Below, one piece after another: positions 4,412-15,737 of a stretch of DNA of 61,956 bases. Origin of the DNA: Meiothermus rufus DSM 22234 (lineage in GTDB: Bacteria; Deinococcota; Deinococci; Deinococcales; Thermaceae). The stretch is taken from NCBI RefSeq assembly GCF_000423425.1, contig NZ_AUHY01000012.1:1-61956 (forward strand), in the 5' to 3' direction. The position numbers and the translations under genes are program-made. The number at the start of each line of letters is the position of its first letter. Position 1 is the stretch's first letter. The notes beneath the pieces are model-generated. The model was not told where the DNA came from. It searched no databases and saw only the letters and a program-made list of their open reading frames with translations.

Positions 4412-5278
4412 GTGAGTTCTGCGCCCAATGCCCTGACCCACCTGGTGGAATCGGCATCATTCAACCGCTTGGTGACAGGCGTAATCCTGTTCGCTGGGTT
4501 GCTGGTGGGCCTCGAGACCTACCCACCCCTGATGGAGCGCTACGGCCCCACCCTTCACCTTTTCAACAACCTCGTGCTGGCCATTTTTGCCCTCGAGGTG
4601 GTGCTGCGCATGGGGGCCCTCTGGCCCCGCCCACTGCACTATTTTCGTAGTGGCTGGAACGTTTTCGACTTTCTGATTGTGCTGGGCAGTCTGCTACCGG
4701 GGCTGGGGGCCTATGCTCCAGCCATGCGGCTGTTGCGCTTGCTTAGGGTGCTGCGCCTGATCCGCACCCTGCCCGACCTTCAGATTATTCTGGGTGCCCT
4801 GCTGCGCAGCATCCCCTCCATCGGCTACGTGCTGTTGCTTATGCTGTTGCTGCTGTATGTCTACGCGGTGGCCGGGGTGTTCTTGTTTGGCCCCAATGAC
4901 CCCTTCCACTTCGGCAACCTGCACACCGCCCTGCTGACCCTGTTCAGCATCCTGACCCTGGAAGGCTGGGTGGATGTGCTGCGCATTCAGTATTTCGGCT
5001 GCGACCGCTTCGAACTGCCCGACCCCGCCCTGTGCAGCCAGCCCCAGGCCCAGCCCCTGCTGGCGGTGGGGTACATGGTCTCGTTTGTGCTGCTGGGCAC
5101 GCTGGTTTTCCTGAATCTGCTGGTGGGCATTGTGGTGAACAGCATGGACGAGATGCGCAAAAGCCTGCAGGCTGCCCAAAACCCGCACGCTAGCGAGATG
5201 GAGCAGAAGCTGCAAGAGGCTCAGGCCAGGCTGAATGAGGCGCTGCGCTTGCTCCAATCGCTGGAACCTAAGCGCTAG
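4412..5278 (+). CDS. Voltage-gated cation channel, NaChBac-like
   Basis: 288 residues, one six-helix subunit that would assemble as a tetramer in the inner membrane. S4 is clear: repeated positive charges in MRLLRLLRVLRLIRTLP (residues ~108-124). After S5 (YVLLLMLLLLYVYAVAGVFLF) the pore loop reads LFSILTLEGWVDVLR. The filter TLEGW corresponds to the TLESW of known bacterial sodium channels, with Ser replaced by Gly. S6 is followed by a C-terminal coiled coil rich in Glu, Gln and Ala, as in NaChBac-type channels. The large insert with Cys residues between pore and S6 (CDRFELPDPALC) could form an external disulfide. Sodium selectivity is inferred from the filter Glu and is not certain. The start is GTG with an adjacent -10 box. 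Confidence 0.92.
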   Translation: MSSAPNALTHLVESASFNRLVTGVILFAGLLVGLETYPPLMERYGPTLHLFNNLVLAIFALEVVLRMGALWPRPLHYFRSGWNVFDFLIVLGSLLPGLGAYAPAMRLLRLLRVLRLIRTLPDLQIILGALLRSIPSIGYVLLLMLLLLYVYAVAGVFLFGPNDPFHFGNLHTALLTLFSILTLEGWVDVLRIQYFGCDRFELPDPALCSQPQAQPLLAVGYMVSFVLLGTLVFLNLLVGIVVNSMDEMRKSLQAAQNPHASEMEQKLQEAQARLNEALRLLQSLEPKR

Positions 5279-5585: not shown

Positions 5586-6092
5586 CTACTCCCGGTAATA
5601 GACGTCGAGCGTTCCATCAGGAAGCAGCATCACCAGCCGAACGTCGCCCACGTAGGGATCCTTCTCGACCCTCCACGGGAACGACCTGGGGCGGCCAGCC
5701 TTGGGGGCGATCGTCAACCGGTTCGCCTCGGCAGTAAACATTCCTTCCTCACCTCACTAGGACGTTCTGCTGCAGGCTCCCCGTATTTCGCGACGTGAAC
5801 ACGAACTCGTACGAGCCATCTGGCTTGAAGTGATAGCGCTTCCTCGAGGTGAAGGCGGGCCCGGTATCGTCCTGAACCCACACGCCCAATAGAGCCGTAG
5901 CCATCACCGACCTCCCCGAGGGGCTCGTCACAGGTCTGGCGTCTTTCCTGGAGGCCGGAAACTCCAAACGGGCCCGGTGGTGCCCTTCGAGCCCTCCACC
6001 TGCGCTCGAGCGGGCGCAGGGTCGAGAAGCGCTCCGCCCACGATAGACAACCCGATAAGCAGGAACCGCCAGACGTGCCGGTGGTCAAGCAT
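5586..6092 (-). pseudogene. Frameshifted small exported protein, lipocalin-like
   Basis: Three frames join into one protein. 6092-5928 starts with a signal peptide (VWRFLLIGLSIVGGALL, cleavage near ARA-Q) and ends GPVWSFRPPGKTPDL before a stop. The next frame continues SPSGRSVMATALLGVWV, then KRYHFKPDGSYEFVF, up to QQNVLVR at about 5750. The third continues EEGMFTAEANRLTIAP and ends DGTLDVYYRE at 5586. The last break is explained by one extra T (GTGAGG-T-GAGGAAGG). The pattern LLGVW, then F.PDG.Y, then EEG.F resembles small lipocalin-like or 'DUF' beta-barrel proteins. A Shine-Dalgarno GGAGGT before an ATG at 5902-5904 could still start a shortened product. Confidence 0.55.
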
Positions 6093-6116: not shown

Positions 6117-6132
6117 TGACCGGAGGATGACC
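6117..6132 (+). promoter_or_regulatory. TGACC direct repeats, 11-bp period (site 1)
   Basis: TGACC at 6117-6121 and again at 6128-6132, exactly 11 bp apart, about 125 bases before the start of the BTAD-type regulator at 6257. The same arrangement occurs at 9391-9406 and 11748-11763. SARP-family activators are known to bind direct repeats at one-turn (11 bp) spacing, so this is a candidate operator. Confidence 0.45.
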
Positions 6133-6256
6133 CGTCAAGGCTGGGGGTACCAGGCTCAGAAGGGCCCCTCCTGAGGATTCCAGGCCAGACCGCCCTCGAA
6201 CCCCCGGCCGTCGGCGCCTGTGATAGCTCCATGGAGTACAATAGCCCTATCGGCTT

Positions 6257-9200
6257 ATGGACAAGGGCTCGAGTCCAGGCTCCTTGGTGCCCTCCAGGGT
6301 GAGCGAGCGCTTCAAGCCCATACTCGCCCGGTGGGCGGGGCTGGCTTTGGGCCTGTGGGGAGAGGCGGGCATCGGCAAGAGCTATACCGCGCGCGAGTTG
6401 CTGCAACAGACACCCTGCCGCAGCTTCAGCCTGCACGCTACTGTCTCGCTACCTGCCCTGGTGCAGCAGCTAGGGGAACCTCCCCACACCGCCCCGTTCC
6501 CGTTGTGGGCCCAGACGCTGCTGGAACGCCTTGGGTGCGGTGAGCCCTTGGGAAGCGAGAAGGCGGCCTCGGCCCTGAGCGCCCTGCTGGCGGCGCTGGC
6601 TCCGGTGATTTTGCACCTGGAGGACCTGCATGAGGCCCCCGCCGAGCGCCTCGAGCTTGTGCGGGAGCTGGCCCGCATGGTCTCGCGCACCAGGGGAACG
6701 GCCCTGCTGGTGACGAGCCGGGTCCTGCCACCCGAGCCCTTCCAGGCTTTGCGCATAGAACCCCTGTCCTTCGAGACTTCGAGAAGCCTGCTCGAGGCCG
6801 AACTGAGATCGGGCCTTCCCAAGGAAGCCGTCACGTGGATCTACGAGCAAGCCCAGGGAAATCCGCTATTCACCCTGGAGTACCTCCGCCATCTGGCCCG
6901 CCAGGGGTTTTTGTGGAATGACGGTAGCTGCTGGCACTGGCGCGCACCCCTCAAGGGCGAAACGCCGCTGACGGTGGAGGCCCTCATCGAACAGGCCTTG
7001 AAGGAGGCGGCCAGGGGCGGCCTCGAGGCCATCATTGCGGCCAAGGCCGTGCTGCCTTTGGGGGTTGAAGAGGCCTTCTGGGCCCAGGTCGCGGGGGTTT
7101 CGCCGGAGACCCTGGAGCGCGAGAAGGGCCGCCTCGAAGCAGCCGGCGTGCTGCGAAACGGGGAGTTTGTCCACCCGCTCTACCGCGAGGTCAGCCTGCA
7201 CCTCCTGCCCCCGCCGCACCGCCAGGAGCTGGCCCGCAGGGCGCTCGAGGCCCTGCAACCCCACGACCCCGAGGGGGCGGCCGCGTACATCGAGGAGGCG
7301 GGGCTGGAAAGGGAGGAGGCGCTGGAGCTGCTGGGCCGGGCCGCCGAGCACGCGCGGCAGGCCGGGAATGAGGTCCAGGCGGCGCGCTGGGGGGCGCGGG
7401 CAGCGGGCTATGCGCGGGGCGAGGAGCAGGGGCGGATGGCCCTGGAAGCCGCCCAGGTGCTTCAGCACCACGACCTCCCCGAGGCCGCCCGCCTGGTCCG
7501 GCTGGCCCTGCCGACCCCGGCGGCCACGGCCGAGACGGTGCGCTTCTACGCCCACCTGCTGGCGCGGCAGGGGCACCCCCCCGACCTCGAGGCCCTGCTC
7601 GAGGGCCTCCCCCCCAAGCTGCGCGAGGCGGTAGATCTCCCCTCGTTGGCCGTCACCACCTACAACATCGCCGGAAACAACGCCAAGGCCCTCGAGGTCT
7701 GGCTGGCCCACCCGCGGCTGCACGCCGACCCCTCGCCCGATCTCCTGCGCGCGGCGGCGGCTTCGGCGTTGGCGACGGGCCAGATGGAGATGGCCGAGTC
7801 CCTGACGGCCCGGGGCATCGCCACCGCGGACCCGGCCCTGCGCTGCGAGTTCTTGTCCATCCAGGCCCTGACCCACTACCACCGGGGGGAGTATGCGGCG
7901 GCCGAGGCCACCCTGGCGCAGGCCCTGGAGATCCTCGGCACCCTCGACGCGCCGCGCCTGCGGGGCACCGTGCTGGTCAACCGGGCGGCTTTCCTGCGGA
8001 TGCTGGGGCGTTACGACGAGATGGGCCGCTGCCTCGAGGAGGCCCTGCAGATCCGGCGCCAGGCCGGCGACGCCAAGGCCTACGCCTTCGCCCTGGCCGC
8101 CCTGGCCGAGCTTTTGGTCGAGCAGGGGCGCTACGGGGCGGCCGAGGAGGCCGTGCTCGAGGCCATCGCTACGCTCGAGCTCTACGGCCCCAGCCGCTTC
8201 CTGGCCAACGCGCACTCCATCGCGAGCCTGCTGTACCGTTCCCAGGACACCCCCATCGCCCGGCTCCTCGCCCTCAAGCACGCCGACCTCGCGCTGGGCT
8301 ACGCCCGCCAGCTCGGCAGCCCCCGGGTGGTGCGGGAGCTGCTCTTCGACGCCTCGCTCGCCAGCACCGGCGCCGGCCAGCCCGAGCGGGGGCTGGCCCT
8401 GGCCGCCGAAGCCGAAGGGCTGGCCGGGGCGGCGGGGGACTCGCCCCACGACAACTTCCGCACCCGCTGGGCTAAGGGCCTGGCCCTGGAAGCCCTGGGC
8501 GAGCGCGGCGCGGCCGTACAGGCCCTGCGCGAGGCCCTCGAGGGGGCGGGCCAGCTCGACGTGGCGATCGACGAGCACAAGCTCGGCCTCGAGCTCGACC
8601 GGCTCACCGGCGACGTGGAGAGCGCCCGCCGGCGGCTGGGGTGGTTCGAGGGGCACGGCCTCACGAACGGGGCCAACCTGGCCCGCCGCTACTTCCCCCA
8701 GCTCGCCGAGGCCGCCCCCGAGACCCCGCCCGCCGCCCTGCGCCTGGAGTTGCTGGGATCGATGCAGTTCGCCGGAGCGCCCGTGCGCGGCCATAAGCGC
8801 CAGGAGCTGCTGGCGCTCTTGCTCGAGGCCCGCGTCGCCGGGCGGGGCGAGGTGGGCAGGCTCGAGCTCCTCGACGCGCTCTACCCCAGCGAGGATGAGG
8901 AGAGAGCCGCCTCTGCGCTCAAGGAGCTGATCCACAGCGTGCGCTCGCGCTGGGGGGCTTCGGTGGTCGTCACCACCCCTACCGGCTACGCCCTGGGGGC
9001 CACGGTCGGCTCCGACCTGGAGGAGTTCTTGCGCACCGGCGACACCCGGCTGTGGCGCGGGGCCTACCTCGAGGGCCTCGCCTCCTTCAACGAGACCGTG
9101 CGCGAGTCGGCCCACCTGGCCCTGCGCGCGCGGGCCGGGGCGCTGCTGGAGGCCGACCCCAAGGAAGCGGCCCGCCTGGGGCGCCTGCTGCTCGAGGCCG

Positions 9201-9361
9201 ACCCCTACGACCTCGAGGCGCTGAGGCTCACGCTCGAGGCCCTGCGTCGCACGGGGAACCACCGGAGCCTGAACCGGCTGTACGAGGAAGCCAGGGCGAG
9301 GGTGCTCGAGGTCGGGGAGGCCTTGCCGGAGCGCTGGCCGGACTTCCTCACCCCGGCTTGA
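6257..9361 (+). CDS. STAND ATPase regulator with C-terminal SARP-type domain
   Basis: 1034 residues, a large cytoplasmic signalling ATPase and probable transcription regulator. The order is a P-loop ATPase with Walker A GEAGIGKS (35-42) and Walker B VILHLEDLHE (~117-126), as in MalT/AfsR-like STAND proteins. Then comes a long helical TPR region (~330-820, Ala/Leu/Glu-rich pairs). From ~829 there is a winged-helix segment starting LRLELLGSMQF, with KRQELLALLL and SALKELIHSVRSRWG, and then a BTAD-like helical end. Placing the DNA-binding and BTAD part at the C-terminus reverses the usual SARP order, which is seen at 17647-20445. A -10-like TACAAT (6237-6242) lies just before the ATG. G+C and CTCGAG content are very high. 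It reads in the same direction as the exported-protein genes downstream and probably controls them (inference). Confidence 0.82.
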   Translation: MDKGSSPGSLVPSRVSERFKPILARWAGLALGLWGEAGIGKSYTARELLQQTPCRSFSLHATVSLPALVQQLGEPPHTAPFPLWAQTLLERLGCGEPLGSEKAASALSALLAALAPVILHLEDLHEAPAERLELVRELARMVSRTRGTALLVTSRVLPPEPFQALRIEPLSFETSRSLLEAELRSGLPKEAVTWIYEQAQGNPLFTLEYLRHLARQGFLWNDGSCWHWRAPLKGETPLTVEALIEQALKEAARGGLEAIIAAKAVLPLGVEEAFWAQVAGVSPETLEREKGRLEAAGVLRNGEFVHPLYREVSLHLLPPPHRQELARRALEALQPHDPEGAAAYIEEAGLEREEALELLGRAAEHARQAGNEVQAARWGARAAGYARGEEQGRMALEAAQVLQHHDLPEAARLVRLALPTPAATAETVRFYAHLLARQGHPPDLEALLEGLPPKLREAVDLPSLAVTTYNIAGNNAKALEVWLAHPRLHADPSPDLLRAAAASALATGQMEMAESLTARGIATADPALRCEFLSIQALTHYHRGEYAAAEATLAQALEILGTLDAPRLRGTVLVNRAAFLRMLGRYDEMGRCLEEALQIRRQAGDAKAYAFALAALAELLVEQGRYGAAEEAVLEAIATLELYGPSRFLANAHSIASLLYRSQDTPIARLLALKHADLALGYARQLGSPRVVRELLFDASLASTGAGQPERGLALAAEAEGLAGAAGDSPHDNFRTRWAKGLALEALGERGAAVQALREALEGAGQLDVAIDEHKLGLELDRLTGDVESARRRLGWFEGHGLTNGANLARRYFPQLAEAAPETPPAALRLELLGSMQFAGAPVRGHKRQELLALLLEARVAGRGEVGRLELLDALYPSEDEERAASALKELIHSVRSRWGASVVVTTPTGYALGATVGSDLEEFLRTGDTRLWRGAYLEGLASFNETVRESAHLALRARAGALLEADPKEAARLGRLLLEADPYDLEALRLTLEALRRTGNHRSLNRLYEEARARVLEVGEALPERWPDFLTPA

Positions 9362-9368
9362 GCAGGTT

Positions 9369-9406
9369 CCGGCAAAACCTGCCCCATTTATGACCACGAT
9401 CTGACC
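9369..9406 (+). repeat. 38-bp intergenic element, copy 1 (with TGACC repeats)
   Basis: Runs from CCGGCAAAACCTGCCCC through ATTTATGACC to the second TGACC. It matches 11726-11763 at 34 of 38 positions by eye. TGACC occurs at 9391-9395 and 9402-9406 (11-bp period), with TGACA at 9414-9418. The upstream part forms an inverted repeat (GCAGGTT...AACCTGC). It starts eight bases after the regulator's stop and precedes a decayed zinc-ribbon gene and a lipoprotein gene. Confidence 0.6.
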
Positions 9407-9434
9407 GGTCCGGTGACACCCTGGTGCAGAGGGG

Positions 9435-9566
9435 GTGGAGGAGCAGGGGTTTTTACCGCATTTGCCTGCGCTGCGGCGGTGGGGCGTGCCTGCCCCCCTG
9501 CCAACACGCCCGGCGGGGGCAGCGTCACGGAGGGAAACTCGCCACGCCCAGCTTCAAGGAGGCAAT
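9435..9566 (+). pseudogene. Decayed zinc-ribbon gene, paralogue of 11801-12037
   Basis: Starts with GTGGAGGAG in the same position after the 38-bp element as the intact zinc-ribbon gene at 11801. After GGGGTTTTT the frame is off by one base. In the shifted frame it reads FYRICLRCGGGAC, against FYRICPRCARAVA in the intact copy. Further Cys residues follow, but the spacing of the zinc-binding pairs is lost. I read it as a broken paralogue that now serves as leader for the lipoprotein at 9567. The resemblance is short, so confidence is moderate. Confidence 0.5.
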
Positions 9567-10952
9567 ATGTCCAGGTTGTGGTTTCTAGTCCTTGGCTTCC
9601 TGTTAATCCTGGCCCTCACCGCTTGTCCTAGCGGGGGAGGTTCGACGCCTACTCTAAAGGTCACCCCGCCCTCGGCTACCGTCACCGCCGGGGGGGCGGC
9701 CATCCCCTTCTCCGCGACCCTGACGGGGGCCTCGGGGACCATCCATTGGAGCCTGAGCCCTGCCAGCGGGAGCGGAACCCTATCCGCCAGTAGCGGCCCC
9801 ACCGTGCAATACACCCCGCCTGCCAGTGTGAGCGCTCAGACCAGCGTTACCCTGGCCGCCACCTCGGGTAGCCTTAGCGCCTCGGCAAGCATCACCATCA
9901 ACCCCGCCCCCGGCCCGGCCTTTAGCGTGGTGGAGACCATCGCAGGCCAGACCGGGGTGCGTGGTGGTGCCGACGGCCCTGGCGCTTCGGCCACCTTCAA
10001 CTACCCCTACGGGGTGGCGGTCACCAAGGCTGCCGGAGCCACCGGCAACGAGGTGATCGTGTACATCGCGGGCCTCAACGACAGCATCCGCTATGCCCAG
10101 GTGGGCTACGCAGGCAACCCGGTGGGCACGGCTATCGGAAAGGGTACGAGCGGTAGCGTAGACGGCGACGCCAACACCGCCCTGGTGCGAGCCCCAAAAG
10201 GCATTGCCATCGGCTACGATTCGCCCGCCTACGAAGCCTACGCCTACTGGACCGAAGACGACTCTTGTGTAGTGCGCAAGCTCACCGCCTACCCGCTTAA
10301 CGGGAACCGCAAAGCCGTCACGGTGGCGGGCAAAGCCTATACCTGCGGAGCTGCCGATGGCACGGGGGCGGCAGCCCGGTTCAACCGACCTCGAGGTGTC
10401 GTGGTCAACACCCGCACCGGCGAGGTCTTCGTGGCGGACACCTCTAACTACACCATCCGGCGCATCTACGGCGACAGCGTGAGCACCATTGCGGGGCTGG
10501 CGGGTCAGCCCGGCAGCGCCGATGGCCCCGGTGCCACTGCACGGTTCTCCAACCCTACAGGGCTGGCCCTGAACCGCCAGGGAGACCTCTTGGTAGCCGA
10601 CGGCTCCAGCGTGCGCAAGATCACCGCCGGGGTGGTGAGCACCCTTGCCGGAAAGCCGGGCGAGCCCGGCTACAAGGACGGCCCCGGCAGCGAGGCCCGC
10701 TTCAACGGGGCTTCGGGCATCGCCGTGGACGAGGTAGGCAACGTCTACGTCTCGGAGACCGGCAACCATACCATCCGCAAGATCACCCCGGAGGGCGTGG
10801 TGAGCACCGTGGCCGGGGTGGCGGGCGTGACCGGAGCCGACGACGGCAGCCTGAGCGTAGCAACCTTCAACACCCCCACCGGGCTGGCCTACTACAACAA
10901 ACAGCTCTTCGTAGCCGACACCTACAACCAGACCATCCGCCGTATTCGCTAA
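9567..10952 (+). CDS. NHL-repeat lipoprotein with Ig-like domain
   Basis: 461 residues. The ATG at 9567 follows AAGGAGG at ideal spacing. The signal (WFLVLGFLLILALTAC) has a lipobox Cys at 20. Residues ~28-115 are an Ig-like beta-sandwich (LKVTPPSATVTAGG ... VQYTPPASVSA), closely related to one in the lipoprotein at 14337. Residues ~130-461 hold about five NHL repeats, each of the form 'VSTIAG..G..G.ADGPG..ARF..P.GLA....G..V.VAD....IRKI', which fold as a beta-propeller. Such propellers usually bind protein or carbohydrate outside the cell. It stands downstream of the regulator and a TGACC-repeat element. Enzyme activity is not indicated. Confidence 0.85.
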   Translation: MSRLWFLVLGFLLILALTACPSGGGSTPTLKVTPPSATVTAGGAAIPFSATLTGASGTIHWSLSPASGSGTLSASSGPTVQYTPPASVSAQTSVTLAATSGSLSASASITINPAPGPAFSVVETIAGQTGVRGGADGPGASATFNYPYGVAVTKAAGATGNEVIVYIAGLNDSIRYAQVGYAGNPVGTAIGKGTSGSVDGDANTALVRAPKGIAIGYDSPAYEAYAYWTEDDSCVVRKLTAYPLNGNRKAVTVAGKAYTCGAADGTGAAARFNRPRGVVVNTRTGEVFVADTSNYTIRRIYGDSVSTIAGLAGQPGSADGPGATARFSNPTGLALNRQGDLLVADGSSVRKITAGVVSTLAGKPGEPGYKDGPGSEARFNGASGIAVDEVGNVYVSETGNHTIRKITPEGVVSTVAGVAGVTGADDGSLSVATFNTPTGLAYYNKQLFVADTYNQTIRRIR

Positions 10953-11009
10953 AGCCCCCAGCGGCAAAAACCACCCCCCGGTCCGTACATCCAGCTCGCA
11001 GGAGGAACC

Positions 11010-11723
11010 ATGCTTGGCTCAAAACTCCGCAGCCTCACAATCATCGCTGCCGCCGGTCTCGCACTGGCCGCAGGCACGACCTATAGCATCGTGGTCAACG
11101 GGCAAGTGGCCACCGATAAGGCCATCGTGGTGAACGGCAAGACCTATGTGCCGCTCTCGGTGCTCAAGGAGCTGGGGGTGGCCTACAGCCTCAAGGGCAA
11201 CACCCTGACCCTCGGCAAGGCCGCCGCCAACCAGACCCCCGGCGGGGCCGAGCAGCGGGCAAGCCTCGAGGGCTGCCTGGGCGAGACCCTCTTCAACGGC
11301 GTCTGGCGCTTTAAGGTCACGAAGGTCGAGCCCATCGTGAAGGATGCCGGGACGCCCATCGAGACCCCCGGCTGGGGCGTGACGGTGGAGCTGCGCAGCG
11401 GGGCTAAGGCGAACGTCCAGCCGGTCTTCACCGGCGCCCGCGACCAGGGCATCCAGATCGCCTTCGCCGACGCACAGACCCTCACCGCCGACGCCCTGGA
11501 CGTGCAGAAGCTCACCTACGCCAACCTCCCGCCGGGCGGGGTCGTCACCCACCAGCTCAAGTTCTGGTACGCCTACGACACCCCCAAAGAGCAGATCCGG
11601 CCACCCGCCAAGCTGCTGTTCGAGATCAACCCCAAAGGCTTCGAGAACAGCATCCGGGCCAGCGGGGCGGGCTACACCACCCCTACCCCCAGCTTCCGGG
11701 TGCGGCTCGACTGCCAGAAGTAG
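11010..11723 (+). CDS. Exported protein with copper-amine-oxidase N-like domain
   Basis: 237 residues, preceded by AGGAGG. The N-terminus is a signal peptide (LTIIAAAGLALAAG) without a lipobox. Residues ~25-75 match the small 'copper amine oxidase N-terminal' stalk domain: YSIVVNGQVATDKAIVVNGKTYVPLSVLKELGVAYSL..NTLTL. This is a common extracellular binding module that does not imply oxidase activity. The remaining ~150 residues form a beta-rich domain with two Cys (C93 and C235 by my count) and no family I know. It lies 57 bases after the NHL lipoprotein on the same strand and ends just before the second 38-bp element. Confidence 0.75.
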   Translation: MLGSKLRSLTIIAAAGLALAAGTTYSIVVNGQVATDKAIVVNGKTYVPLSVLKELGVAYSLKGNTLTLGKAAANQTPGGAEQRASLEGCLGETLFNGVWRFKVTKVEPIVKDAGTPIETPGWGVTVELRSGAKANVQPVFTGARDQGIQIAFADAQTLTADALDVQKLTYANLPPGGVVTHQLKFWYAYDTPKEQIRPPAKLLFEINPKGFENSIRASGAGYTTPTPSFRVRLDCQK

Positions 11724-11725
11724 GA

Positions 11726-11763
11726 CCGGCAAAACCCGCCCCATTTATGACCGTCATCTGACC
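11726..11763 (+). repeat. 38-bp intergenic element, copy 2 (with TGACC repeats)
   Basis: Matches 9369-9406 at 34 of 38 positions. TGACC is at 11748-11752 and 11759-11763, 11 bp apart, 38 bases before the GTG of the zinc-ribbon gene. The element sits in the only real gap of this gene run, so it probably contains or adjoins the promoter for 11801-15737. Confidence 0.6.
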
Positions 11764-11800
11764 AGCCTGGCGGCAATCTCGAGCAAAGGGGGGTAGACGT

Positions 11801-12037
11801 GTGGAAGACGATCCGGGGATTTTTTATCGCATCTGCCCACGCTGTGCCCGTGCGGTTGCGATGAGCTCGAGCGAGCGCTACTGCATCAACGACGGCGTGC
11901 GCATGCTCGAGGCCTGTCCCGGTTGCGGGGCCCGGATCACCTCGCCCTACGCCCGCTTTTGCGGAAGGTGCGGGCGGGAATTCCGCCTCGAAGCCCGGGC
12001 GTTTGAGGACAAGGCAAGGCAAGGAGGATTGGGATGA
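11801..12037 (+). CDS. Small zinc-ribbon protein
   Basis: 78 residues from a GTG preceded by AAGGGGGG. Cys pairs are visible at CPRC, YC, CPGC and FCGRCG, enough for two zinc ribbons of rubredoxin-like or double-zinc-ribbon type. It is predicted to be cytoplasmic since there is no signal peptide. Its stop overlaps the start of the next gene (ATGA at 12034-12037), so the two are probably translationally coupled. A decayed copy stands in the equivalent place before the NHL lipoprotein. Its role could be regulatory or chaperone-like. Nothing in the sequence decides this. Confidence 0.7.
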   Translation: MEDDPGIFYRICPRCARAVAMSSSERYCINDGVRMLEACPGCGARITSPYARFCGRCGREFRLEARAFEDKARQGGLG

Positions 12038-14322
12038 GGCATTGGTTCGTGAGCGTATTGGTGTTGGCGGGCCTGCTCGGGGCGTGCGGCCCCAGGGACT
12101 CGGGCGGCGGTAACTCGGTGGTGATCAAGGCCGCCGAGGGCGGGGTGGTCGAAGCGGGCGGGGCTAAGCTCACGATCCCGCCGGGGGTGCTGAGCCGGGA
12201 CAGCCGGGTGAGCCTCGAGCTCAAGGCCAAGCCCAGCGAGCCCCAGGACAACCCCCTCAAGGCGGCCGGGCCGCAGGTGGGCCTCGACCTCGGCGGGGCC
12301 AGCCTCAACGCCCCGGCCACGCTCGAGCTGCCCACCGACCCCGGCAGCCCCGAGGGCAGCGTGGTGGTGCTGGAGACCGTCGCCGACCCCGAGCCGGACG
12401 GCCCCCGCCTGTGGGTGCACGCGGCCACGCCGGTAGGCGCCGGCGCGGCGGGGGTTTCGGGGCAGACGGTGCCCGCCAAGGTGGCCTACGCGGTGCGCCG
12501 GGTGGGGCTGTACACCGCCTACGTGGTGCCCAAGCCCAAGCCCCAGGAGGGGGGCGTGCGCTCGCTGCAGGTGCCCTTCTACTACCAGGCGGGCCTGCCG
12601 TGGTGCACCCCGACCTCGCTTTCGATGGTGATCAACTACCACCGGCCGCAGCCGGCCCTGGCCGCCAACCCCAAGTCCCCCGGGGGCTTCGCCAGCAACT
12701 ACGGCCTGGCCAGCCTGATCAAGCAGTCGCCCAGCAGCGGCGCGGGCGCGGGGAGCATCCTCAAGGCCGCCGGGATCCCCGAGAGCGCTTACAGCTACCT
12801 GCGCTGGGACGCCGAGCTCATCCCCAGCGACAACACCTCCGGCGGCTCCAACGCCTTCACCGCCTACGTCGCCATCGCGACCACCGGCTTCTTCGGCCTC
12901 TTCCCGGCCAAGCCGGTGTGGACCGCCTCCGACCGCCTGTGGCACGCCTTCGTCCTCACCGGGGTGACCGCCGACGGCGTCTACATCGCCGACTCCAACG
13001 CCCGCCCCAACAGCGACTGGAATGGCACCCACCCCTCCATGACCTGGAAGGCCTTCCGCGAAGCCAACTGCACGCTCAAAGACCCGAGCGATCCCTCCAA
13101 GGGCTGTGCCGACTCGGGCGACGCGGCCCAGCCCGACCTCTACACCCTGATCTTCTACAGTGCCCCCAAGCCCGAGAGCGAGCGGCGCGGCTCCATCGAG
13201 CTCTCCCACGGTGACACCCTCTACTTCGGCGGCGTGGGCATCCCCTACCCGGCCTCACTCATCTTCCGCAACCCGAGCGGCCAGGAGATCTCGCGCTGGA
13301 AGTGGGACGGAACCTACCCCAACGGCTACTACTACAGCGACGAGGCCACCACCCTCCCCACCTTCCCCTACGGCCACAACCTGGTGCAAGACAACGAGTT
13401 CCGCTACCTCATCTACCGCTCCAGCCGCATGGCGGTGAGCTTCAACGTGGTCAACGTGACCAACGTGGCGCTGGGCTTCGAGATCGAGGCCAGGCTCTAC
13501 GTGAGTGGGAGCCTGAAGGCCCAGAAGTTCGCCAACGTGAGCGTGGAGGCTTACAACCTCGAGCCCGTGAACCTCGACTTCGGCAACCTGGCGGGCGTGG
13601 TGGGGACAATAGGCGGGCCCACCCCGGCACGGCTGGAGCTCAAGCTGCGCCAGGGCGGCACCTTGCAGGACGTCAAACACATCGCCTTCAAGCTGGCCCC
13701 CGACCCCACTGACCTGCCCAAGGTGCGCATCCTGGTGCCCAGTGTCCCCACCACCTTGCTCAAGGGCGAGCCCTTCACCTTCCGGGGCGAGGGCTTCGAC
13801 GCCCACACCCTGCCCGATGGTCGCGCCCGCCTGGCCTGGTTCGAGGGCGCTAGCCCCCTGGGCGACGGCGCCCAGTACACCCTCACCCCCACCGCCGCCG
13901 GCTCGCGCACCCTGACCCTGGTGGCCACCGGCGAGTACGGCCTGCAAGCCGCCACCTCGGCCACCGTCAACGTCATCGACCCTACCCGCACCCCTGGCGA
14001 GATCGTGATCGTGGAGCCGAAGAACGGCGCCGAGTACTGGAGCCCCGACACCAACCAGCCCATGGTCGACGTGCCGCTGGTGGGTTACGCCACCTACTCC
14101 AACGGCGCGGCGGTGCCCGGCGAGCGGCTGGTGTGGAGCGCCCAGGCCCAGGGCGGCACCGAGGTGGAGGTGGGGCGGGGCTCGAGCCTCAACGTGCGCC
14201 TGGTGGGCGGCCGCAACTACAAGCTGCCCTACACCATCCGCCTCACCGTGCTCAGCGACAGCGGGCAGCCCATCGGCAGCAAGACCGTGACCATCACCGC
14301 CGGCTACACCTACGTCGGCTAG
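12034..14322 (+). CDS. Lipoprotein with ZU5-like and C39-type peptidase domains
   Basis: 762 residues with lipobox LLGAC (Cys ~19). Residues ~30-80 are a ZU5-like module (AAEGGVVEAGGAKLTIPPGVL), the same kind as in the truncated lipoprotein at 16315. Residues ~185-390 look like a C39/papain-like cysteine peptidase: VPFYYQAGLPWCTPTSLSMV supplies the Cys, LWHAFVLTGVTADGVYIADSN the His and the Asp/Asn. C39-like domains cleave leader peptides or act as envelope peptidases. The rest is beta-rich, with Ig-like segments near 590-680 and 690-762. Four extra Cys lie around the peptidase end (NCTLKDPSDPSKGC). Cleavage activity is inferred from the Cys-His pair only. Confidence 0.78.
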   Translation: MRHWFVSVLVLAGLLGACGPRDSGGGNSVVIKAAEGGVVEAGGAKLTIPPGVLSRDSRVSLELKAKPSEPQDNPLKAAGPQVGLDLGGASLNAPATLELPTDPGSPEGSVVVLETVADPEPDGPRLWVHAATPVGAGAAGVSGQTVPAKVAYAVRRVGLYTAYVVPKPKPQEGGVRSLQVPFYYQAGLPWCTPTSLSMVINYHRPQPALAANPKSPGGFASNYGLASLIKQSPSSGAGAGSILKAAGIPESAYSYLRWDAELIPSDNTSGGSNAFTAYVAIATTGFFGLFPAKPVWTASDRLWHAFVLTGVTADGVYIADSNARPNSDWNGTHPSMTWKAFREANCTLKDPSDPSKGCADSGDAAQPDLYTLIFYSAPKPESERRGSIELSHGDTLYFGGVGIPYPASLIFRNPSGQEISRWKWDGTYPNGYYYSDEATTLPTFPYGHNLVQDNEFRYLIYRSSRMAVSFNVVNVTNVALGFEIEARLYVSGSLKAQKFANVSVEAYNLEPVNLDFGNLAGVVGTIGGPTPARLELKLRQGGTLQDVKHIAFKLAPDPTDLPKVRILVPSVPTTLLKGEPFTFRGEGFDAHTLPDGRARLAWFEGASPLGDGAQYTLTPTAAGSRTLTLVATGEYGLQAATSATVNVIDPTRTPGEIVIVEPKNGAEYWSPDTNQPMVDVPLVGYATYSNGAAVPGERLVWSAQAQGGTEVEVGRGSSLNVRLVGGRNYKLPYTIRLTVLSDSGQPIGSKTVTITAGYTYVG

Positions 14323-14336
14323 GGAGGGAAGAGGCC

Positions 14337-15737
14337 ATGACCCGCACCTGGATCGTTCTCCTGGGCCTGCTGCTGGCGGCCTGCAACACCAGCACCCCGG
14401 CCGGCCCGCCCAAGATCAACGGCTTCACCGCCACGCCCGCCAGCCTGCCCAGCGGCGGAGGAAGCGTGACGCTGGAGTGGGACGTCACCGGCGCGAGCAG
14501 CCTCGACATCAGCGGGGTGGGCAGCGTGACCCCCGCCGACAGGGGCAGCAAGACCGTCAACGTGACCGCCAGCCGGACCTTCACCCTCACCGCGACCAAC
14601 AGTGCCGGGAGCGTGAGCAAGGACGCCTCGGTGACGGTGGCCCCCGCGCCTTCCATCAGCGTCACGCCCGCCTCGAGCGCCTTCGTGGCCGGCGACCCCG
14701 GCGGCAGCTTCGACGCGGTGGTGACGGGCTCGAGCGCCGCGGTGAAGTGGTCGCTGGAGGGCCCGGGGAGCCTGAGCTCGACCACCGGCCCCAGCGTGAT
14801 CTACACACCTCCTGCCACCCTCAGCGTCCTGACCACCGCCACCCTCACCGCCGCGCTCGAGGGCACCGGCCTGAGCGCCAAGGCCACCATCAGCGTGGCC
14901 CCCGCTGTGCTCAGCAGAGGGGTGCTGTTCTACAAGGCCGATGGTTCGGGAGCACTGGGAACCCTGGATAGCGCCGGGGCCTACACCCCGGTCAGGAGCT
15001 ACGCCGCCGGGGAGCTGCCCGCCGGGGTCAGCCACTTTGGCAAGCCTTACGAGCTGTACGAGCTGTTGTACAACTCCACCGACGGCTCAGGAGCGCTGGG
15101 TAGCTTCGACGGGACAGGCGTCTTCCGCAAGCTGCGCGCCTACGCCACCGGGGAACTGCCGGCCGCCCAGGATCAGATGGTGAGCCTGAACGACCGCCTG
15201 GTGTTCTACAAGGCTTCCACCGGAACCACCCTCTGCGGCAGCTACGGCCCCGACTACGGCTTCAGCAACCCCGTGACCCAGGCCGGCTACTCCAAGGACT
15301 GGAACCTCGTCGTGCGGGTCAACGACGCCAACGGGGTGTTCTTCTACAAGCAGCCCACCGGCACCGGGGGCTACGGGACCTACGACGCGGCCTGCAAGTG
15401 GTCGTACGTCTACTCCAATTACAGCCTCAGCACCAACTGGAGCCACATCCTGCGCACCCCGGGCGGGGTCTTGTTCTACCGCCAGAGCGACGGGATCGGC
15501 GCGCTGGTCACCTTCGCCGCCAACGGGGCGCCGACCCAGACCGGCACCTACGTCTCGGGGCAACTGGCCAAGGGCTGGGAGCAGGTGGTCAGCACCCCGG
15601 CCGGGGTGCTCTTCTACAAGGCCGACGGCTCGGGCGAGCTCGGCACCTTCAGCGGCAATACCTACACCAAGCTCAAGGCCTATGCCGCCGGGGAACTGCC
15701 TGCTGGGGCAGCGCTGGTGGTGCCGGTAGGAAAATAA
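14337..15737 (+). CDS. Lipoprotein with Ig-like domains and six tectonin-like repeats
   Basis: 466 residues. The signal ends in the lipobox LLAAC. Two Ig-like domains follow (~25-105 and ~108-195). The second is the same type as in the NHL lipoprotein at 9567 (both contain a YTPPA strand). From ~200 to the end there are six repeats of about 40 residues, with the core 'GVLFYKADGSG.LGTF...Y..L..YA.GELPAG'. The first and last are nearly identical and the middle ones diverged. Such repeats form tachylectin/tectonin-type propellers that bind sugars. It starts 14 bases after the C39 lipoprotein stop, so it belongs to the same transcript. A short hairpin (15738-15752) follows the stop. Confidence 0.8.
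   Translation: MTRTWIVLLGLLLAACNTSTPAGPPKINGFTATPASLPSGGGSVTLEWDVTGASSLDISGVGSVTPADRGSKTVNVTASRTFTLTATNSAGSVSKDASVTVAPAPSISVTPASSAFVAGDPGGSFDAVVTGSSAAVKWSLEGPGSLSSTTGPSVIYTPPATLSVLTTATLTAALEGTGLSAKATISVAPAVLSRGVLFYKADGSGALGTLDSAGAYTPVRSYAAGELPAGVSHFGKPYELYELLYNSTDGSGALGSFDGTGVFRKLRAYATGELPAAQDQMVSLNDRLVFYKASTGTTLCGSYGPDYGFSNPVTQAGYSKDWNLVVRVNDANGVFFYKQPTGTGGYGTYDAACKWSYVYSNYSLSTNWSHILRTPGGVLFYRQSDGIGALVTFAANGAPTQTGTYVSGQLAKGWEQVVSTPAGVLFYKADGSGELGTFSGNTYTKLKAYAAGELPAGAALVVPVGK

Follow-up and report, generated by a model that had tools for sequence, protein, structure and literature searches.

Two candidate SARP-type promoters beside a large regulator with a C-terminal SARP domain in Meiothermus rufus

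The window analyzed here is a 61,956-bp stretch of the Meiothermus rufus DSM 22234 genome. It holds an island in which a large regulator gene is followed by lipoprotein and zinc-ribbon genes, with TGACC direct repeats in three of the intergenic gaps (Table 1). The decayed zinc-ribbon gene that the first-pass annotation had placed ahead of the NHL-repeat lipoprotein is real, as FYRIC-RC survives there in a shifted frame. The corresponding operons of relatives encode lipoproteins with a papain-family peptidase region. An ion-channel protein (Pfam Ion_trans, E = 7.8e-47) is encoded just upstream of the island at 4412-5278. No Rfam match to an RNA element was found between positions 5900 and 12200.

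Table 1. Features of the island, in coordinates of the window
Feature	Position	Strand	Basis and remarks
Third TGACC-N6-TGACC pair	6117..6132	+	No -10 at required distance; not conserved; probably chance
Large SARP-type regulator, 1034 aa	6257..9361	+	N-terminal AAA ATPase, TPR middle, C-terminal SARP domain; Pfam AAA_16 and TPR, AfsR profile match, orthologs
SARP domain, OmpR-type winged helix and bacterial transcriptional activation helices	8735..9358	+	Recognition helix ALKELIHSVRSRWG; AlphaFold2 model, Foldseek, VIA-align
Promoter 1, upstream block CCGGCAAAACCTGCCCCATTTA	9369..9390	+	Conserved in orthologs
Promoter 1, direct repeat TGACC-N6-TGACC	9391..9406	+	
Promoter 1, -10-like CACCCT	9417..9422	+	10 bp past second TGACC
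Zinc-ribbon gene remnant, frameshifted FYRIC-RC	9435..9566	+	
NHL-repeat lipoprotein	9567..10952	+	First intact gene past promoter 1; Pfam NHL 1.2e-24
Secreted protein, weakly like copper amine oxidase N-domain	11010..11723	+	First gene past promoter in relatives
Promoter 2, upstream block CCGGCAAAACCCGCCCCATTTA	11726..11747	+	
Promoter 2, direct repeat TGACC-N6-TGACC	11748..11763	+	
Promoter 2, -10-like CAATCT	11774..11779	+	10 bp past second TGACC; 21 bp before zinc-ribbon start
Double zinc-ribbon protein, 78 aa	11801..12037	+	Pfam DZR 1.7e-7; adjoins regulator across family
Lipoprotein with peptidase C39-like region	12034..14322	+	Pfam Peptidase_C39_2 5.3e-5
Lipoprotein, tectonin lipoprotein of the first-pass annotation	14331..15737	+	No Pfam match; synteny in relatives

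The last 260 residues of the regulator match AfsR (8hvr) in an hmmsearch profile comparison (E = 1.2e-4). The full-length protein stays below detection by Pfam BTAD at a threshold of 0.001. For an AlphaFold2 model of the C-terminal domain (pLDDT 92.9), Foldseek gave only two strong matches, AfsR and EmbR, with alignments of more than 200 residues. The same two proteins lead the VIA-align comparison (Z 12.3-12.9, rmsd 5.0-5.4 over about 205 residues; next rows about 10), with AfsR at Z 12.9, rmsd 5.0 and 205 aligned residues and EmbR at Z 12.7. The C-terminus is thus predicted to fold like the SARP domain of AfsR and EmbR, and the model has the arrangement that defines the SARP family, a winged helix followed by a bacterial transcriptional activation domain. 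Profile match and predicted fold together bear out the regulator class assigned at first pass, a SARP/EmbR-type domain. No paper on SARP/BTAD regulators of Thermus, Meiothermus or Deinococcus was found in the literature searched.

The pattern TGACC-N6-TGACC occurs three times in the window, as initially reported, each time on the plus strand in intergenic DNA, and there are no further matches. Shuffled sequence gave a mean of 0.14 copies, and none of 100 shuffles reached three. Among same-strand TGACC pairs in the window, three are 11 bp apart, compared with zero to two at nearly all distances up to 100 bp, the exception being 36 bp with four pairs. The whole genome (2.74 Mb) contains nine copies of the bare pattern versus three of the reversed pattern, and TGACC pairs at spacings of 7-17 total 131, or about 12 per spacing. 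The six copies outside the window lie in or before unrelated genes. Enrichment of the bare pair is therefore a property of the island and not of the genome. As a genome-wide regulon marker the bare pair was ruled out, there being no enrichment at 11 bp.

The first-pass proposal of a regulon marked by the bare motif consequently stands only in part: genome-wide, the motif is nearly as frequent elsewhere, and the idea is rescued by an extended motif and its conservation. When YANNNT is required exactly 10 bp past the second repeat, only two sites remain in the whole genome, those at 9391 and 11748. These two are not independent draws, as a 38-bp block found nowhere else in the genome is common to both. 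Both sites contain CCGGCAAAACCYGCCCCATTTATGACCNNNATCTGACC, of which no further genomic copy was found at up to three mismatches.

In SARP promoters the direct repeats are spaced by 11 or 22 bp, and 8 bp separate the 3' repeat from the -10 element (PMC10936776). The repeats at 9391 and 11748 are 11 bp apart, and their distance to the -10 is likewise 8 bp when TGACCNN is counted as a heptamer. CACCCT and CAATCT are both weak -10 elements with A at position 2 and T at position 6, and judging from the sequence, neither promoter requires a -35 hexamer. Across the window and relatives the block reads T(G/A)ACC-N6-T(G/A)ACC-N10-YANNNT, in which the 10-bp gap between second repeat and YANNNT is exact in all tabulated island sites (22/22). 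At promoter 2 and in most relatives the start codon follows about 20 bp past the -10 (20-23 bp in most sites of clade 1 and of the TAACC clade). Other distances are found at promoter 1, with its decayed leader of 144 bp, and in the second paralog clade (35-52 bp). No third repeat at -22 is proposed, since TGCCC or CGACC lies 11 bp upstream in some sites and out of register in others. Clade 1 has a conserved CGGCAAAACC box 12-21 bp 5' of the first repeat, and the TAACC clade has a variant of it; the window copies lie within 9369-9390 and 11726-11747.

The pair at 6117 is of a different kind. GGGGGT occupies its -10 position, YANNNT is found at none of the gaps from 6 to 17 bp, the 8-bp spacing of SARP promoters included, and the nearest regulator orthologs have no counterpart of the pair. 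Regulator genes of relatives are preceded instead by TAACG-N6-TAACG-N10-YANNNT, in all three paralog clades. This TAACG promoter is missing before the regulator orthologs of the window, M. taiwanensis and Calidithermus roseus, and upstream of the window regulator no degenerate TAACG box with up to three mismatches plus a -10 was found. The 6117 pair is probably a coincidence that lies outside the promoter system. Autoregulation through this pair, as suggested at first pass, is not supported because a properly spaced -10 is absent and the pair does not recur in relatives. Of the three gaps highlighted in the first-pass annotation, it is the two at 9391 and 11748 that hold conserved promoters with SARP geometry, each ahead of a lipoprotein operon.

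The regulator has relatives in Meiothermus, Calidithermus and one more genus of the family, and the double zinc-ribbon protein occurs in the same genomes, usually at the same locus. Every fuller regulator relative (15 genomes of Meiothermus, Calidithermus and related bacteria) has the promoter block in its island, where the T(G/A)ACC (TRACC) pair lies 3' of the regulator and before a zinc-ribbon or lipoprotein operon. When the 450 bp downstream of 21 regulator genes were scanned for TRACC pairs at distances from 6 to 30 bp, 16 loci had a pair at 11 bp, and every other distance was empty. In genome G002 (L043) the site is located about 9 kb further downstream, before its zinc ribbon, and two regulator paralogs (L060 and L061) have no downstream promoter of the TRACC-pair type. 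The -10 A and T, which played no part in site selection, are invariant in 19 sites whose flanks are less than 80% identical. Among 22 Meiothermus-like genomes, all 15 with the regulator have an island site, and none of the seven without an intact regulator does. The full TRACC pattern numbers 72 in 50 genomes of the family, against six for the reversed control, and 40 of the 72 are in Thermus. Two of the seven genomes without an intact regulator (G009 and G017; L163 and L172) keep only deletion remnants, in which a single short frame, preceded by an intact TAACG promoter, joins the regulator start, part of the DNA-binding domain and the zinc ribbon.

Repeat type tracks regulator clade rather than genome. 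One genome (G004) has three regulator paralogs, each adjoined by its own version of the repeat, TGACCGCCGTCTGACC, TAACCGGCAGATAACC and TGACCGACTTTTGACC. In the TAACC clade (L048 and L055, sister rows with support 97), both half-sites are altered together and the recognition helix changes from LIHTVR to VFKTR or VFQAR. A third TAACC site, in genome G019, lies on a separate contig without a regulator match. The change from TGACC to TAACC is a single event on the tree. Because the sites are linked to the regulator and the helix changed only once, the matching of helix to half-site and the co-occurrence carry less weight, and co-inheritance through linkage and shared ancestry explains part of the matching. 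Paralogs with matched changes in recognition helix and half-site constitute a natural set for studying a SARP-DNA recognition code.

TAACG-N6-TAACG-N10-YANNNT is widespread, with 183 sites in 50 Thermaceae genomes, none in the reversed control and none in the window. Genes following these sites in the fetched loci (L155-L204), named by sequence inspection rather than by family search, encode SARP/BTAD-type regulators, NHL and Ig-like lipoproteins, a DegT-type sugar aminotransferase and small conserved proteins. The pattern apparently marks a large, undescribed regulon, possibly the larger story. As TAACG sites also occur in genomes that do not have this regulator, a different factor would read them. 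Relatives of the NHL lipoprotein are elsewhere preceded by TAACG sites, and the window copy may therefore have shifted to the island TGACC promoter. A tentative extension, to which we give slightly less than even odds, is that Thermaceae operate parallel regulons on the single layout N5-N6-N5-N10-YANNNT, with the 5-base half-site as the address. TGACC and TAACC would belong to different large C-terminal SARPs, TAACG to a higher factor over SARP and many surface genes, and TGACA to PhoB, together forming a two-level cell-surface cascade, of which the window lineage would have lost the TAACG step.

Sequence, spacing, conservation, predicted fold and co-occurrence all suggest that the two promoters are most likely read by the adjacent cognate SARP through its C-terminal domain, which would act in cis to activate both lipoprotein operons. 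The repeats at 9391 and 11748 would then be -35-region operators of two SARP-type activator promoters, on which two SARP domains of the 1034-aa regulator would sit side by side, one per helical turn. Standing in for a -35 element, these domains would contact sigma region 4 and RNA polymerase in the manner of AfsR at afsS, and both the NHL-lipoprotein operon and the zinc-ribbon/C39-lipoprotein operon would thereby be switched on. The ATPase-TPR part presumably gates activation upon a signal, and the 6117 pair would have no role.

PhoB-type regulators share the winged helix, and their promoters, built on TGAC repeats at similar spacing, have the same geometry. The sites could accordingly be Pho boxes, in which case a PhoB-type response regulator would activate the lipoprotein operons in response to phosphate starvation and the neighboring SARP would be incidental; we regard this as unlikely. 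In Thermus, TGACC-N6-TGACC-N10-TAGACT, which is probably a Pho box, precedes a 5'-nucleotidase gene, related sites precede genes for a UgpB-like binding protein and a PhoB-like response regulator, and pstS carries TGACC-N6-TGACA. However, the island repeats do not match the pstS repeat of their own genus: Meiothermus pstS promoters, that of the window genome included, have TGACA-N6-TGACA, whereas the island half-sites are TGACC or TAACC in 44 of 44 tabulated. Moreover, Meiothermus 5'-nucleotidase genes have no such box, genomes without the SARP retain the pstS box and not the island sites, and several repeat types coexist in one genome, each beside its own SARP paralog. The Thermus Pho-type boxes (L098-L111, L205-L216) differ from the Meiothermus pstS repeat as if PhoB preference had shifted between the genera. 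At three Thermus loci (L102, L107 and L110), a recurrent block of TAACCTGGACGTAACCTCCCCCCTGCTACCCTGGGGCTAACCC followed by GTAAGGGGGTG or a close variant lies ahead of several different genes.

The promoters might also be real and activator-dependent and yet respond in trans to another OmpR/SARP-family protein, for example the reader of TAACG. The same geometry is widespread with TAACG, and relatives of the NHL lipoprotein are found behind it at L160, L167 and L193; TAACG sites nevertheless persist in genomes that lack the regulator, where the TGACC island sites do not, and within a single locus the half-sites are kept distinct, with TAACG ahead of the regulator and TGACC behind it. This makes a different trans factor very unlikely. 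That all three pairs are coincidences of GC-rich DNA plus one duplicated intergenic block is hardly credible, even though the bare motif lacks genome-wide enrichment and the 38-bp block is shared by two of the sites. Chance probably does account for the 6117 pair, but at 9391 and 11748 it is contradicted by the conservation of repeats, spacing and -10 across genera with diverged flanks.

Activation by the adjacent SARP, the reading we prefer, can be set beside several known systems. To our knowledge, almost all SARPs known so far come from Streptomyces antibiotic clusters. EmbR of Mycobacterium tuberculosis resembles the window protein, as modeled, in its two-part SARP fold and differs in having a C-terminal FHA domain and no ATPase-TPR part. 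SARP-LAL regulators of the PimR type (PMC5930380, PMC3367932) likewise join a SARP to an ATPase regulator and use heptameric direct repeats, but their SARP domain is N-terminal and their targets are polyene antibiotic genes. The Pho box of PhoB shares with the window sites the direct repeats 11 bp apart upstream of the -10 and, in Thermaceae, the TGAC core; it differs in its fifth base (A at Meiothermus pstS), in often comprising three repeats and in serving unrelated operons.

The closest parallel is AfsR, a large SARP of Streptomyces coelicolor. At afsS the repeats are 11 bp apart and the -10 is a weak CACTGT; the -35 region is covered by two adjacent AfsR protomers, which contact sigma region 4 (PMC10936776). 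AfsR/afsS and the window have in common repeats 11 bp apart over the -35 region, 8 bp to a weak -10, a SARP fold, and ATPase and TPR parts in one protein. In contrast to AfsR, where the SARP domain is N-terminal, that of the window protein is C-terminal, the repeat is TGACC and the phylum is Deinococcota; the likely targets are lipoproteins, zinc-ribbon and cysteine-peptidase-like proteins rather than an antibiotic regulator. In an alignment by eye, the AfsR DNA-contact residues T88 and R92 correspond to E and S in the window protein (T in most relatives). What appears to be new is a large C-terminal SARP with AfsR-like promoters outside the actinobacteria. At the sequence level, the island thus argues for an AfsR-like activation promoter in a thermophilic, deep-branching phylum; the domains of the regulator stand in reverse order to those of AfsR, and its putative targets are surface lipoproteins and proteases.
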